Below are positions 46,319 through 51,065 of a stretch of DNA of 64,000 nucleotides, piece by piece. The notes beneath the pieces were generated by a model. The model did not search any database. It saw nothing but the letters and a program-made list of their open reading frames with translations, and was not told the DNA's origin. A program made the position numbers and the translations under genes. The stretch's first letter is position 1, and each line of letters starts with the position of its first letter. The DNA is taken from the NCBI RefSeq assembly GCF_900111485.1, contig NZ_FOIC01000002.1, positions 248,001 through 312,000 of the forward strand, in the 5' to 3' direction. Source of the DNA: Natrinema hispanicum (GTDB lineage Archaea; Halobacteriota; Halobacteria; Halobacteriales; Natrialbaceae).

Positions 46319-47401
46319 CTATCGCGCTCTGGTGTTCGCGTCAGCACGTTCGTCCAGTCGAATCCCTGTCTTCTTCAAAATTTGTGTCGAAAACAGGGAG
46401 TCCCAATCCTCGTCGGTCACGTCCCAGTACTCGGCCATCGTCTCGCGGACCTGCTCGATGCGGCGCTGACTTTCCTCCTCGCTGCGGCCGTGAGTCATCG
46501 CAAAGAAGTTGTACGGCCAGACACCCTCGTGGCGCGGCCGCCGGTAACAGTGCGTGACGAAGGGCAGCGCGGCGACTTCGGGACCGACCTCGGGGACGAC
46601 TTCGTCGGGGACGTTCCAGACCGTCATCCCGTTTTCCGTGTATCCCAGCGCGTAGTGGTTTGGCACGACGCCGATCCGGCGGATCTTCCCCTCGCGCTCG
46701 AAGCGTGTGACCGTCTCGAGGGCCCAGTCGATCTCTTGTCCGATCGAGTCAGCCACGTCCGCATACGGTGTCTCGGTCAGCGGGACGCCGCCTTGGATCT
46801 CGAGGACGAGGTCGCGTTCGGCCGGCGACAGCGTCGATTCGTCGGTCGGCGTCACATCGGGACCGAGGTCCGAGAGGTCGATCCCAGCCGCCTCGATGTC
46901 CCCGTCGCCGTCGAGCGGGCCGTCGACGTAGAACTTGGCCTCGACACGAAACTCGCGTTGTTTCGGCAGGTTGTACGTCTCTTGACCCGTCTCGGCTTCG
47001 ATCTCGGCTAACACTTCCTCGACGCGATCCTCGTCGGCGACGCTGACGACGAACCAGACGTTCAGGTGAGGATGTTCGCGCTCGTAGTTGTGGGCCACTT
47101 CGCGGTGGTCGTTGACTGCTTCGGCGATTTCGTCGAATCGGTCGTCGGGGGCATGCATGGCAACCAGCGTTGCCGCGCCGCCGATCTCCTGGGCGTTGAC
47201 CAGCGGCCCGAACCGCGAGAGGACGCCGCGGTCATCTAACTCACGAATCGTCTCGAGCAACCCCGTCGCGTCGATGTCGACCCCGGTGTCGCGCATAGCA
47301 GCCGCAGCAGGCTCGAACGGTCGTTCTACGACGGGAAACCCGCCCTGAAAAGCGTTGACGACCGCCCGCTCGCGCTCAGTGAGGTCGACGTCCGTATTCA
47401 T
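46319..47401 (-). CDS. ahbAB: Fused siroheme decarboxylase AhbA-AhbB
   Basis: 360 residues of two tandem Lrp/AsnC-like halves. Half 1 (1-170): LTERERAVVNAFQGGFP, GVLSRFGPLVNAQEIGG, HLNVWFVVSV. Half 2 (190-355): LSPAERDLVLEIQGGVPLT, IRRIGVVPNHYALGYTENGM and RPRHEGVWPYNFFAM, ending LFSTQILKKTGIRL, typical of AhbB. The enzyme decarboxylates siroheme to 12,18-didecarboxysiroheme in archaeal heme synthesis. The operon sirC-hemA-ahbAB fits this. Often misannotated as a transcriptional regulator; here the operon favours the enzyme. Confidence 0.9.
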   Translation of the reverse strand: MNTDVDLTERERAVVNAFQGGFPVVERPFEPAAAAMRDTGVDIDATGLLETIRELDDRGVLSRFGPLVNAQEIGGAATLVAMHAPDDRFDEIAEAVNDHREVAHNYEREHPHLNVWFVVSVADEDRVEEVLAEIEAETGQETYNLPKQREFRVEAKFYVDGPLDGDGDIEAAGIDLSDLGPDVTPTDESTLSPAERDLVLEIQGGVPLTETPYADVADSIGQEIDWALETVTRFEREGKIRRIGVVPNHYALGYTENGMTVWNVPDEVVPEVGPEVAALPFVTHCYRRPRHEGVWPYNFFAMTHGRSEEESQRRIEQVRETMAEYWDVTDEDWDSLFSTQILKKTGIRLDERADANTRAR

Positions 47402-47493: not shown

Positions 47494-47898
47494 CTACTCG
47501 CCTTCGACGCCAGTCACGTCAAAGCCCAGCTCGCGGATATCCTCGAGGATCGCCTCGTGGTCAGCGCTGGCCTCGTAGTAGATGACGATGTCGAAGCTGC
47601 CCTCGCGCAGCAGTTGCTGGCACTCCCAGACGAACTCCTCGTCTTCTAAGGTCAGTCCCTGGTGCTGGTTCGAGGAGAAATCGGTGTCGTCGTTGCCCGA
47701 GTAGACGTAGCAGTCTTTCGGGTCGTGACCCGCGTGCTCGGCGATGATATCGCCGACGTCGATCGTCGCCTGCATCATCTGGACGTCTGCCTGTCCGTCG
47801 TAGTCGGTATGAACGATCGCACCGTTGAGTTCGATCTCGCCGGGCTCGAGCAAGGCCTTGGTTCGCTGATAGAGGTCGTCGTCGATTACGTCTGCCAT
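47494..47898 (-). CDS. Haloarchaeal hypothetical protein, DUF5778-like
   Basis: 134 residues: DDDLYQRTKALLEPGEIELN, DVQMMQATIDVGDIIAEHAG, DPKDCYVYSGNDDTDFSSNQ and IVIYYEASADHEAILEDIRE. Acidic and probably soluble. It is upstream of ahbAB on the same strand (92-nt gap). It matches my recollection of DUF5778; function unknown. Confidence 0.7.
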   Translation of the reverse strand: MADVIDDDLYQRTKALLEPGEIELNGAIVHTDYDGQADVQMMQATIDVGDIIAEHAGHDPKDCYVYSGNDDTDFSSNQHQGLTLEDEEFVWECQQLLREGSFDIVIYYEASADHEAILEDIRELGFDVTGVEGE

Positions 47899-48043: not shown

Positions 48044-48976
48044 ATGAAGCGGTGGCTCCGTCAGCGCGTCGACGCGGCCTACGAACGGCTGCTCTCACGT
48101 GAAATCTCCGGCGCGCCGACCCACGTTGCGGTGATCCAAGACGGCAACCGACGATACGCTCGAAAACAGGGCGGCGACGCCAACGAGGGACACCGTGCCG
48201 GTGCAAAGACGACCGAACGCGTCCTCGAGTGGTGTCAGGATATCGGCGTCGAGGAGTTGACGCTGTATGCGTTCTCGACGGAGAACTTCGAGCGGCCGCC
48301 CGACGAGCGGGAAGCGCTGTTCGACCTCCTCGAGACGAAGCTTCGGGAGTTCGCAGATGCCGACCGCGTCCACGACAACGGGGTCCACATTCGGGCGCTC
48401 GGCGACGTCGACCGGCTCCCCGAGCGAGTCCGCGAGGCCGTCGCCTACGCCGAGGACCGAACCAGCGACTACGACGAGTTCGTTCTCAACATCGCGCTGG
48501 CCTACGGCGGTCGCGCACAGCTGCTCGAGGCCGTCCGCGGAGTCGCCGACGCCGTCGACGCGGGCGACCTCGAGCCCGACGAAATCGACGTCGAGGACAT
48601 CGAGCAACGGCTCTACGACCAGCCGGTGCGCGACGTCGACCTGATCATCCGGACCGGCGGCGACGAGCGAACGTCGAACTTCCTTCCCTGGCACGCCAAC
48701 GGCAACGAAGCCGCCGTCTTCTTCTGTACGCCCTACTGGCCGGAGTTCTCCAAGACGGACTTTCTGCGCGGGATTCGGACCTACGAACACCGCCAGGAGT
48801 CCTGGCGGCGCACTCGCGCCCGGCGCGCGCTGGCCCTGCTGGGCGCAGTCAGCGAACCGGAACTCGCCGACGCCCGCGCGATCGTCGACCGGTTCCGTGA
48901 CTCGCTGCCCTCGAGCGAGCGGCCCGACGCCGGCGAGTTCGAGAGCGGCGACTCGAGCAGTCAGATCGCGGACTAG
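48044..48976 (+). CDS. uppS: Cis-prenyltransferase, catalytic-type subunit (UppS1)
   Basis: 310 residues, cis-polyprenyl diphosphate synthase that elongates allylic diphosphates with IPP to make the lipid carrier for glycosylation. The catalytic Asp33 is in VIQDGNRRYARKQGG; LYAFSTENFERPPDE and IIRTGGDERTSNF are also present, with FFC in place of the canonical EFYF. The C terminus continues as an acidic extension (RRTRARRALALLG...) and lacks the terminal RxG motif that closes the active site of homodimeric enzymes. It ends 2 nt before the convergent UppS2 gene. Start ATG 48044. Confidence 0.93.
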   Translation: MKRWLRQRVDAAYERLLSREISGAPTHVAVIQDGNRRYARKQGGDANEGHRAGAKTTERVLEWCQDIGVEELTLYAFSTENFERPPDEREALFDLLETKLREFADADRVHDNGVHIRALGDVDRLPERVREAVAYAEDRTSDYDEFVLNIALAYGGRAQLLEAVRGVADAVDAGDLEPDEIDVEDIEQRLYDQPVRDVDLIIRTGGDERTSNFLPWHANGNEAAVFFCTPYWPEFSKTDFLRGIRTYEHRQESWRRTRARRALALLGAVSEPELADARAIVDRFRDSLPSSERPDAGEFESGDSSSQIAD

Positions 48977-48978
48977 GA

Positions 48979-49584
48979 TCAGCGGCCGAACCGTCGCGAC
49001 CGATTACAGTACTCGCGAACCGCCCGCAGGAAGTCTCGTTTGCGAAAGTCCCGCCAGTTGACGTCGGTAAAGTACAGCTCCGAGTAGACTGACTGCCAGA
49101 TCATGAAATCGGAGAGCCGCTCCGCGCCGGTCTTGATCACCAGGTCCGGCTCGGAGGGAAAGACGAGGTGGTCTTCGACATCCTCGTCGTCGATCGCCGC
49201 AGGATCTAATTCGCCCGCGTCGACGCGCTCGGCGAGAGTTCGGACGGCACTGGTAAACTCGTGTTTTCCGCCGAGGCCGATCCCGATCCGAATCGGTGCG
49301 TCGGCGCGTGCCTTGTCTTCCGGCCCGCGGACGGCGACCGGCCGCGGCGCGTCGATCCGCTCGAGTTCGCGTTGCAGGGCCGGCACCGCCGCTGCGTCGA
49401 GGACGCTGACGTAGACGGTTACTTGCGAGGCGTATTCGACGGCCCACTCGAAGAAGTCCGTCAGCGTCTCGTAGGCACCCCGCTCTAACAGGTCGCGCTC
49501 GGTGATCACGAGCGCGATGTGGTCGGGCGGATCGCCGTCGTGACGGCGGATCCGGAAGGCCAGATACCGTTCGTACAGTCCCAC
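48979..49584 (-). CDS. Divergent cis-prenyltransferase homologue lacking the catalytic Asp motif (UppS2, NgBR-like)
   Basis: 201 residues from GTG (VGLYERYLAFRIRRHDG). The C-terminal half is a clear cis-prenyltransferase: LVIKTGAERLSDF, MIWQSVYSELYFTDVNW, FRKRDFLRAV. Where catalytic enzymes have HVAxIxDGNxR it reads DHIALVITERDLLER, so the catalytic Asp is lost (Thr28 aligns with Asp33 of UppS1). The extreme C terminus RSRRFGR keeps the RxG motif (R-F-G). This loss/retention pattern mirrors eukaryotic NgBR/Nus1. The upstream extension of the frame is not conserved-looking. Confidence 0.85.
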   Translation of the reverse strand: MGLYERYLAFRIRRHDGDPPDHIALVITERDLLERGAYETLTDFFEWAVEYASQVTVYVSVLDAAAVPALQRELERIDAPRPVAVRGPEDKARADAPIRIGIGLGGKHEFTSAVRTLAERVDAGELDPAAIDDEDVEDHLVFPSEPDLVIKTGAERLSDFMIWQSVYSELYFTDVNWRDFRKRDFLRAVREYCNRSRRFGR

Positions 49585-49742: not shown

Positions 49743-51065
49743 GTGACGGCACCCGTTCGGCAAGCTGGCGTGTTTGCAGCCCTCTGTACGCTGTCGCTTG
49801 CAGTTCCGCTTGCCGGTCCGCGCGTCGGAGCCGCGGTCGCCGGCATCGTCCTGTTGGGTGCCTACGTCATCACCGACGGCCCGCTGTTCGACCTGCTCGC
49901 GTATCCGGGCGACTACGAGGATTCACGGCTCTATGGCCTCATCACGTTCGTCCTCGCGGCGGTCGCACTCGGCCTGATGGCGACCGCAGCGTCGATGCCG
50001 GTCGCCGTCTTCGTCGGAACGATCCTGCTCGTCGGCTATGGCAACCTCGGCGAGCAACTCGTCAGGCTGCGAACCGACGGGCCGGTCGTTCGTGTCGTCG
50101 GATTTTGTCTGACGGCAGCCGTGGCGGCCGTCGCCGGCCAGGCCATCACCCGTTCGCTCGCTGGGGATGCCGTCATCTCGGCACTTCCCATCATGGTCTT
50201 TCTGGCGGCCAGCGGTGCATTTCTCGCCGCGCTGTTGCGTGACATGCTGTTGCGCTCCGACGATCCAATCGTCGTCCTCTCGGTCGGGCTCTTGTTGTGG
50301 CTGCTCGCGGAACTCCAGCCGACCATCGGCACAACGGAACTGCTCATCGCGCTCGCAGTCACGGTCGCGCTCGGATATACGTCCTACGCGCTCGAGACAG
50401 CCTCGATCGCCGGGATGCTCACCGGCGTGTTGCTGGTGTTGCTGACGACCGTCCTCGGCGGCTACGGCTGGTTTGCCGTCCTCGTTTCCTTTTTCGCCAT
50501 CGGCGGTCTTTCGACGAAGTTCCGCTACGAGGAAAAGACGGAACTCGGCGTCGCCGAGGACAACAACGGCGCTCGAGGGAGCGGCAACGTGCTCGGCAAC
50601 GCCGCGGTCGCGCTCGTCGCCGTCCTCGGCTATGCGGCCAGCGACGCCGGCTTGCTGCCTCACGAACCCGAGCTCTTCTTATTTGCCTTTACCGGCTCGA
50701 TCGCCACCGCAATGAGTGACACCCTCTCGAGCGAGATCGGGAGCGTCTTCGACCGACCGCGACTGATTACGACCCTCAAGCCGGTCGAGCCCGGCACTGA
50801 TGGCGGTGTCACCTGGCAGGGTGAACTCGCCGGCATCGTCGGCGCAGCCATCGTCGCCATCATCGCCACCGGGCTCTTTCCCGAAGTGAGTGGTGGCGGT
50901 GCGACGATCATCGTCGCCGCAGGGATCGCCGGGATGACCGTCGATAGCCTGCTCGGCGCAACGCTCGAGGGATCGGTGCTTGGCAATCAGGGTGTGAACT
51001 TCCTTGCGACGCTGTCCGGTGCGCTCGTCAGCGTCCTGCTAGTGGTTACGTTCGTCCTCGGCTGA
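49743..51065 (+). CDS. DUF92 membrane protein (CdsA/phytyl-phosphate-kinase-like)
   Basis: 440 residues with about 11-12 membrane helices. The C-terminal half is DUF92: FAIGGLSTKFRYEEKTELGV, GARGSGNVLGNAAVAL, ATAMSDTLSSEIGSVFDRPR, GVTWQGELAGIVGAAIV and LLGATLEGSVLG. Plant relatives (VTE6) act on phytyl phosphate, and CdsA/dolichol-kinase proteins share the fold. The N-terminal half is an extra membrane block. Divergent from UppS2, which suggests a polyprenyl-phosphate role; activity is not proven. GTG start. Confidence 0.88.
   Translation: MTAPVRQAGVFAALCTLSLAVPLAGPRVGAAVAGIVLLGAYVITDGPLFDLLAYPGDYEDSRLYGLITFVLAAVALGLMATAASMPVAVFVGTILLVGYGNLGEQLVRLRTDGPVVRVVGFCLTAAVAAVAGQAITRSLAGDAVISALPIMVFLAASGAFLAALLRDMLLRSDDPIVVLSVGLLLWLLAELQPTIGTTELLIALAVTVALGYTSYALETASIAGMLTGVLLVLLTTVLGGYGWFAVLVSFFAIGGLSTKFRYEEKTELGVAEDNNGARGSGNVLGNAAVALVAVLGYAASDAGLLPHEPELFLFAFTGSIATAMSDTLSSEIGSVFDRPRLITTLKPVEPGTDGGVTWQGELAGIVGAAIVAIIATGLFPEVSGGGATIIVAAGIAGMTVDSLLGATLEGSVLGNQGVNFLATLSGALVSVLLVVTFVLG

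Follow-up and report, generated by a model that had tools for sequence, protein, structure and literature searches.

Does the tail-to-tail gene pair UppS1/UppS2 of Natrinema hispanicum encode two cis-prenyltransferases, or the two subunits of one? These are exactly the two PF01255 genes of the genome, and their stop codons lie two bases apart. The sequence anatomy, the invariance of the relevant residues, co-occurrence, predicted folds and an exclusion-based correspondence to a Methanosarcina mazei pair (the latter as cited in PMC8131916) favour the second answer: UppS1, as the catalytic subunit, and UppS2, as the non-catalytic one, very probably (roughly 0.9) form a single heteromeric cis-prenyltransferase, producing the precursor of the glycosylation lipid carrier.

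Motifs and predicted folds of UppS1 and UppS2

The features are listed with their positions in the window, i.e., the whole analyzed stretch of 64,000 nucleotides (contig NZ_FOIC01000002.1, positions 248,001 to 312,000):

48044..48976, + strand: UppS1, probable catalytic cis-prenyltransferase subunit, 310 aa, from the ATG at 48044 to a stop ending at 48976 (PF01255, TIGR00055; top Foldseek match human DHDDS, 6z1n_A)
48140..48154, + strand: DGNRR catalytic motif, Asp33–Arg37 of UppS1 (unchanged in all UppS1 examined, 101/101 from Halobacteria and 25/25 from elsewhere)
48782..48973, + strand: UppS1 residues beyond 246, the C-terminal extension (lacks RxG; a helix-turn-helix is predicted)
48979..49584, − strand: UppS2, probable non-catalytic NgBR-like cis-prenyltransferase subunit, 201 aa, from the GTG at 49584 down to 48979 (PF01255 in the C-terminal half; fold; 194/194 genomes)
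49492..49503, − strand: TERD, residues 28–31 of UppS2, replacing the catalytic DGN (E29 and D31 invariant in Halobacteria; T, A or S at position 28)
48982..48996, − strand: terminal RRFGR, residues 197–201 of UppS2, an RxG motif (R197 and G200 present in all UppS2 examined, 85/85 from Halobacteria and 26/26 from other lineages)
49743..51065, + strand: DUF92 integral membrane protein, head-to-head with UppS2 (PF01940, 198 bits)

UppS1 is a full-length family member (234 bits with PF01255, profile positions 1–216; 237 bits with TIGR00055, cut-off 109.55). It has the catalytic DGNxR with Asp33 that the sequence-only reading assigned to it, as D33-G-N-R-R, and retains the STEN, GGR, and RTGGDERTSN motifs. 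The 64 residues past position 246 contain no RxG. DSSP, applied to the AlphaFold model of moderate confidence (pLDDT 71), assigns a long helix to residues 237–268 and another one to residues 271–287. The extension had been described as unrelated and as devoid of a terminal RxG; the latter part stands, but the extension is not simply unrelated, since the predicted helix-turn-helix resembles the C-terminal domain of DHDDS.

The start of UppS2 is supported by a nearly invariant Met at this position in the alignment of 53 genera. The match of UppS2 to PF01255 (92 bits, above the cut-off) covers only residues 96–200, profile positions 115–219, i.e., the C-terminal half; the earlier statement that UppS2 keeps the "elongation half" is right in that the C-terminal half of the fold is retained, although the wording is loose. 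Homology of the two proteins is seen across the C-terminal half by BLASTP (E 2e-19), and in a profile–profile alignment over 202 columns that include the N-terminal half. With the H-(I/V)-A strand common to both proteins as the reference point, T28 falls at the position of the catalytic Asp and is followed by E29-R30-D31. Hence the Asp expected of a competent cis-prenyltransferase is replaced in UppS2 by the T28/E29/R30 stretch, and DGN is found in 0/85 homologues, in agreement with the proposed loss of this residue.

UppS2 is modelled by AlphaFold (pLDDT 82) with the cis-prenyltransferase fold. Chains of UPPS, DHDDS, and NgBR are among the closest PDB structures and score equally, at Z of about 13–14, and in these structure searches NgBR is not separable from the other members of the fold; a search of PDB with the N-terminal 100 residues alone yields neither a cis-prenyltransferase nor NgBR.

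Conservation and co-occurrence in Halobacteria

Conservation was assessed for 101 UppS1 and 85 UppS2 sequences of Halobacteria, with 57 paired genera. D33, G34, N35, R36, R37, and STEN are invariant in UppS1 (101/101), and none of these proteins (0/101) has a terminal RxG. In UppS2, position 28 is occupied by Thr (80), Ala (4), or Ser (1), while E29, D31, R197, R198, and G200 are invariant (85/85); all 85 homologues end in RxG, as was noted for the RRFGR of UppS2. The alignment of 53 genera contains about 50 invariant columns, with a constant length of the reading frame. As the residues split between the proteins are invariant in both sets, the motif split was read correctly, far beyond chance.

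Co-occurrence was analyzed in 194 Halobacteria genomes with completeness of at least 90%. UppS2, on whose general presence the sequence-only reading had staked its proposal, has a strong match in 194/194 genomes, the weakest best match (E 4e-36) being well above the cross-hits of UppS1. UppS1 is undetected in one draft genome (G072), which has UppS2. Two PF01255 genes are found in 186 genomes, a third copy in seven, and a single gene in one. The third copies inspected (loci L132 and L133, genomes G068 and G148) are UppS1-type, with a single UppS2 kept; therefore, one UppS2 may serve two catalytic subunits. A similar arrangement is known from yeast, where Rer2 and Srt1 share Nus1. In a part of one genus (g22; G006, G011, G038, G065, and others), the UppS2 match is weak or falls into two pieces, which suggests an insertion near residue 90.

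Gene arrangement and neighbouring genes

Both reading frames are oriented as originally described, and the tail-to-tail arrangement recurs in 81/81 fetched haloarchaeal loci containing both genes (some genomes being counted more than once), with a spacing from 0 to about 5,900 bases. UppS1 and UppS2 lie apart in 9/57 haloarchaeal genera sampled and are unlinked also in Methanosarcinaceae; hence, an operon-like stoichiometry is not universal.

The DUF92 gene adjoins UppS2 in 56/60 haloarchaeal loci, including most of those with UppS1 elsewhere. The order DUF92 <- -> UppS2 -> <- UppS1 is seen also in Methanoperedens, in a Methanocellales MAG, and in other families. The DUF92 protein is a probable pathway partner that would act outside the heteromer. 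The link itself was considered as a new observation and rejected as such, being already present in Makarova et al., 2015 (PMC5898192), where uppS is the single conserved context of arCOG02245 and a kinase step in isoprenoid biosynthesis is suggested; the closer association of DUF92 with UppS2 than with UppS1 may be a new point.

On the other side of the pair, a DUF5778 protein of unknown function (47494–47898) is found near the two genes in 43/60 haloarchaeal loci. Further away, a single open reading frame (46319–47401) fuses siroheme decarboxylase subunits AhbA (residues 12–157) and AhbB (198–348); judged by eye, the adjacent genes resemble sirC and hemA.

Other families of the phylum and the Methanosarcina mazei pair

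The UppS2 profile matches 244/246 genomes of the phylum. PF01255 is absent from two draft genomes of family f17 (G200 and G208, 91% complete); these may have lost the carrier-lipid synthase, or the sequence may be incomplete. Representatives of about twenty further families show the split in nearly all other families, Methanosarcina included: UppS1 has DGNRR in 25/25 cases, and UppS2 lacks DGN and retains R197 and G200 in 26/26. D31 is kept in 21/26 non-haloarchaeal UppS2, while position 28 and E29 vary; thus, TERD is the haloarchaeal form, and the features that stay constant across the families sampled are the loss of DGN and the retention of RxG in UppS2.

In M. mazei, MM_0618 and MM_1083 were reported to form a heteromeric cis-prenyltransferase that makes C45–50 chains, probably destined for the glycosyl carrier lipid (Emi et al., 2019, as cited in PMC8131916), and MM_0014 is a separate enzyme (PMC8131916). 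Genome G303, from the family of Methanosarcina (f12), has three PF01255 genes: UppS1, UppS2, and a paralog matching the PDB entries MA1831 (408 bits) and MM_0014 (399 bits). The third paralog being MM_0014-type, UppS1 and UppS2 correspond, by exclusion, to MM_0618/MM_1083 as this pair is described in the citing paper. Among the lines of evidence for the heteromer, this correspondence, taken from that citation, is the strongest; it also means that a two-subunit enzyme of this kind is not new, and a haloarchaeal one was previously only implied. By this correspondence, the M. mazei pair shares the phylum with UppS1/UppS2, and DGN and RxG are divided in the same way between one UppS1 and one UppS2; unlike the tail-to-tail genes of N. 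hispanicum, those of Methanosarcina are unlinked. The homodimeric short-chain enzymes MM_0014 and MA1831 are likewise archaeal PF01255 proteins, but represent the separate third paralog, which is absent from the N. hispanicum genome. Escherichia coli UppS, a bacterial homodimeric UPPS, resembles UppS1 in fold, family (PF01255/TIGR00055), and catalytic motifs; however, it carries DGN and RxG on one polypeptide, whereas in haloarchaea they are found on two proteins. A heteromer from Archaeoglobus fulgidus was reportedly described in 2022; it is not used here as evidence.

Comparison with human DHDDS/NgBR

In the human complex, the RxG tail of NgBR crosses the interface, sits in the DHDDS active site, and builds both substrate sites, and the helix-turn-helix of DHDDS does not allow a productive homodimer (PMC7573591). 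This bears out the parallel drawn at the outset, that of a catalytic subunit lacking RxG and a partner supplying it. DHDDS/NgBR (NUS1; PDB 6Z1N, 6W2L) and the haloarchaeal pair share a DGN subunit without RxG but with a C-terminal extension, predicted in UppS1, of the helix-turn-helix type, and a partner of the pseudoenzyme kind with a terminal RxG, which in NgBR enters the active site. They differ in the partner: UppS2 lacks a transmembrane N-terminus, and its terminal sequence is RRFGR, against RLGK in NgBR. Foldseek ranks human DHDDS first for the UppS1 model (302 aligned columns), and the profile match of UppS1 extends to position 277 with DHDDS but only to 250–259 with bacterial enzymes. 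A broad (deep) UppS2 profile matches NUS1/NgBR chains over residues 17–206, nearly the full length (E 1.6e-11), while the haloarchaeal full-length profile reaches NgBR weakly. At the lost catalytic loop, LVITE of human NgBR aligns with LVITE(R) of UppS2.

In the tree, UppS1 and UppS2 form two clean groups, with DHDDS beside UppS1 (95/56); NgBR branches on the side of UppS2, though as a very long branch. Trees constrained to an NgBR + DHDDS clade (p-AU 0.30) or to DHDDS with bacteria (p-AU 0.16) are not rejected. The split between catalytic and RxG subunits might have arisen once in archaea, before eukaryotes, and been inherited by DHDDS/NgBR, with haloarchaea having the simple soluble form; we offer this tentatively and at somewhat below even odds.

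Proposed mechanism and alternative explanations

The pair combines what is seen in heteromeric cis-prenyltransferases, namely, a catalytic subunit without a C-terminal RxG, a non-catalytic partner of the same fold with RxG, and co-occurring genes. Because the anatomy is alike, the DHDDS/NgBR mechanism is the best explanation for UppS1/UppS2. The hydrophobic tunnel would lie in UppS1, which would also contribute Asp33 and the remaining ligands of substrate and Mg2+. UppS2 would be a pseudoenzyme of the cis-prenyltransferase fold; like the tail of NgBR in the human complex, its C-terminal RFG(R) would reach over the dimer interface and complete the substrate sites of the catalytic subunit. The product would be a polyprenyl diphosphate, from which the glycosylation lipid carrier is derived. 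We infer the physical complex, the RxG contact, the product length, and the obligate mutual dependence from these comparisons.

Several observations count against the heteromer: the pLDDT of 71 for the UppS1 model, the genera with unlinked genes, and the draft genome without detectable UppS1. Moreover, activity without a canonical RxG is known for some homodimeric enzymes, e.g., MM_0014, whose C-terminal end is a glycine covering the cavity of the partner subunit (PMC8131916). UppS1 might act alone as a homodimer, UppS2 being a dispensable activator, stabilizer, or membrane or regulatory adaptor. UppS1 does retain all catalytic motifs, and homodimers of human DHDDS are weakly active (PMC7573591); however, the terminal RxG is never found in UppS1 and is invariant in UppS2 and its deeper relatives, UppS2 is missing from 0/194 genomes, and the M. 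mazei pair is cited as a heteromer, which together leave this explanation improbable. Even less probable is that UppS2 is not a subunit of UppS1 but a separate enzyme whose chemistry would differ and would use the invariant E29 and D31. The strong conservation of TERD in Halobacteria, the frequent D31 in other lineages (21/26), and the adjacency of DUF92 to UppS2 even where UppS1 is elsewhere speak for it, but neither position 28 nor E29 is constant outside Halobacteria, NgBR has a similar LVITE stretch at the TERD site, and the corresponding pair is used by the Methanosarcina heteromer, as far as it is described in the citing paper. Decay or misassembly of UppS2, to which its N-terminal half without a Pfam match might point, is already refuted by conservation, with an intact reading frame of the same length in 53 genera and matches in 194/194 genomes, and has a negligible probability. 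The reading of UppS1/UppS2 as a probable heteromeric enzyme, proposed from the sequence, is thus supported by co-occurrence, by the complementary loss, which is invariant in Halobacteria and extends across the phylum, and by the M. mazei heteromer as cited.

Implications

The gene that haloarchaeal annotations usually list as a second "uppS" is very probably a required non-catalytic subunit rather than a redundant synthase; therefore, studies of archaeal UppS that express or knock out one gene at a time would be misleading. The pair offers a small, probably soluble, and genetically tractable model for NgBR-like completion of an active site, in hosts such as Halobacterium salinarum (locus L260) or Haloferax; in humans, mutations there cause disease. 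It also raises the question of an archaeal source for the eukaryotic split.
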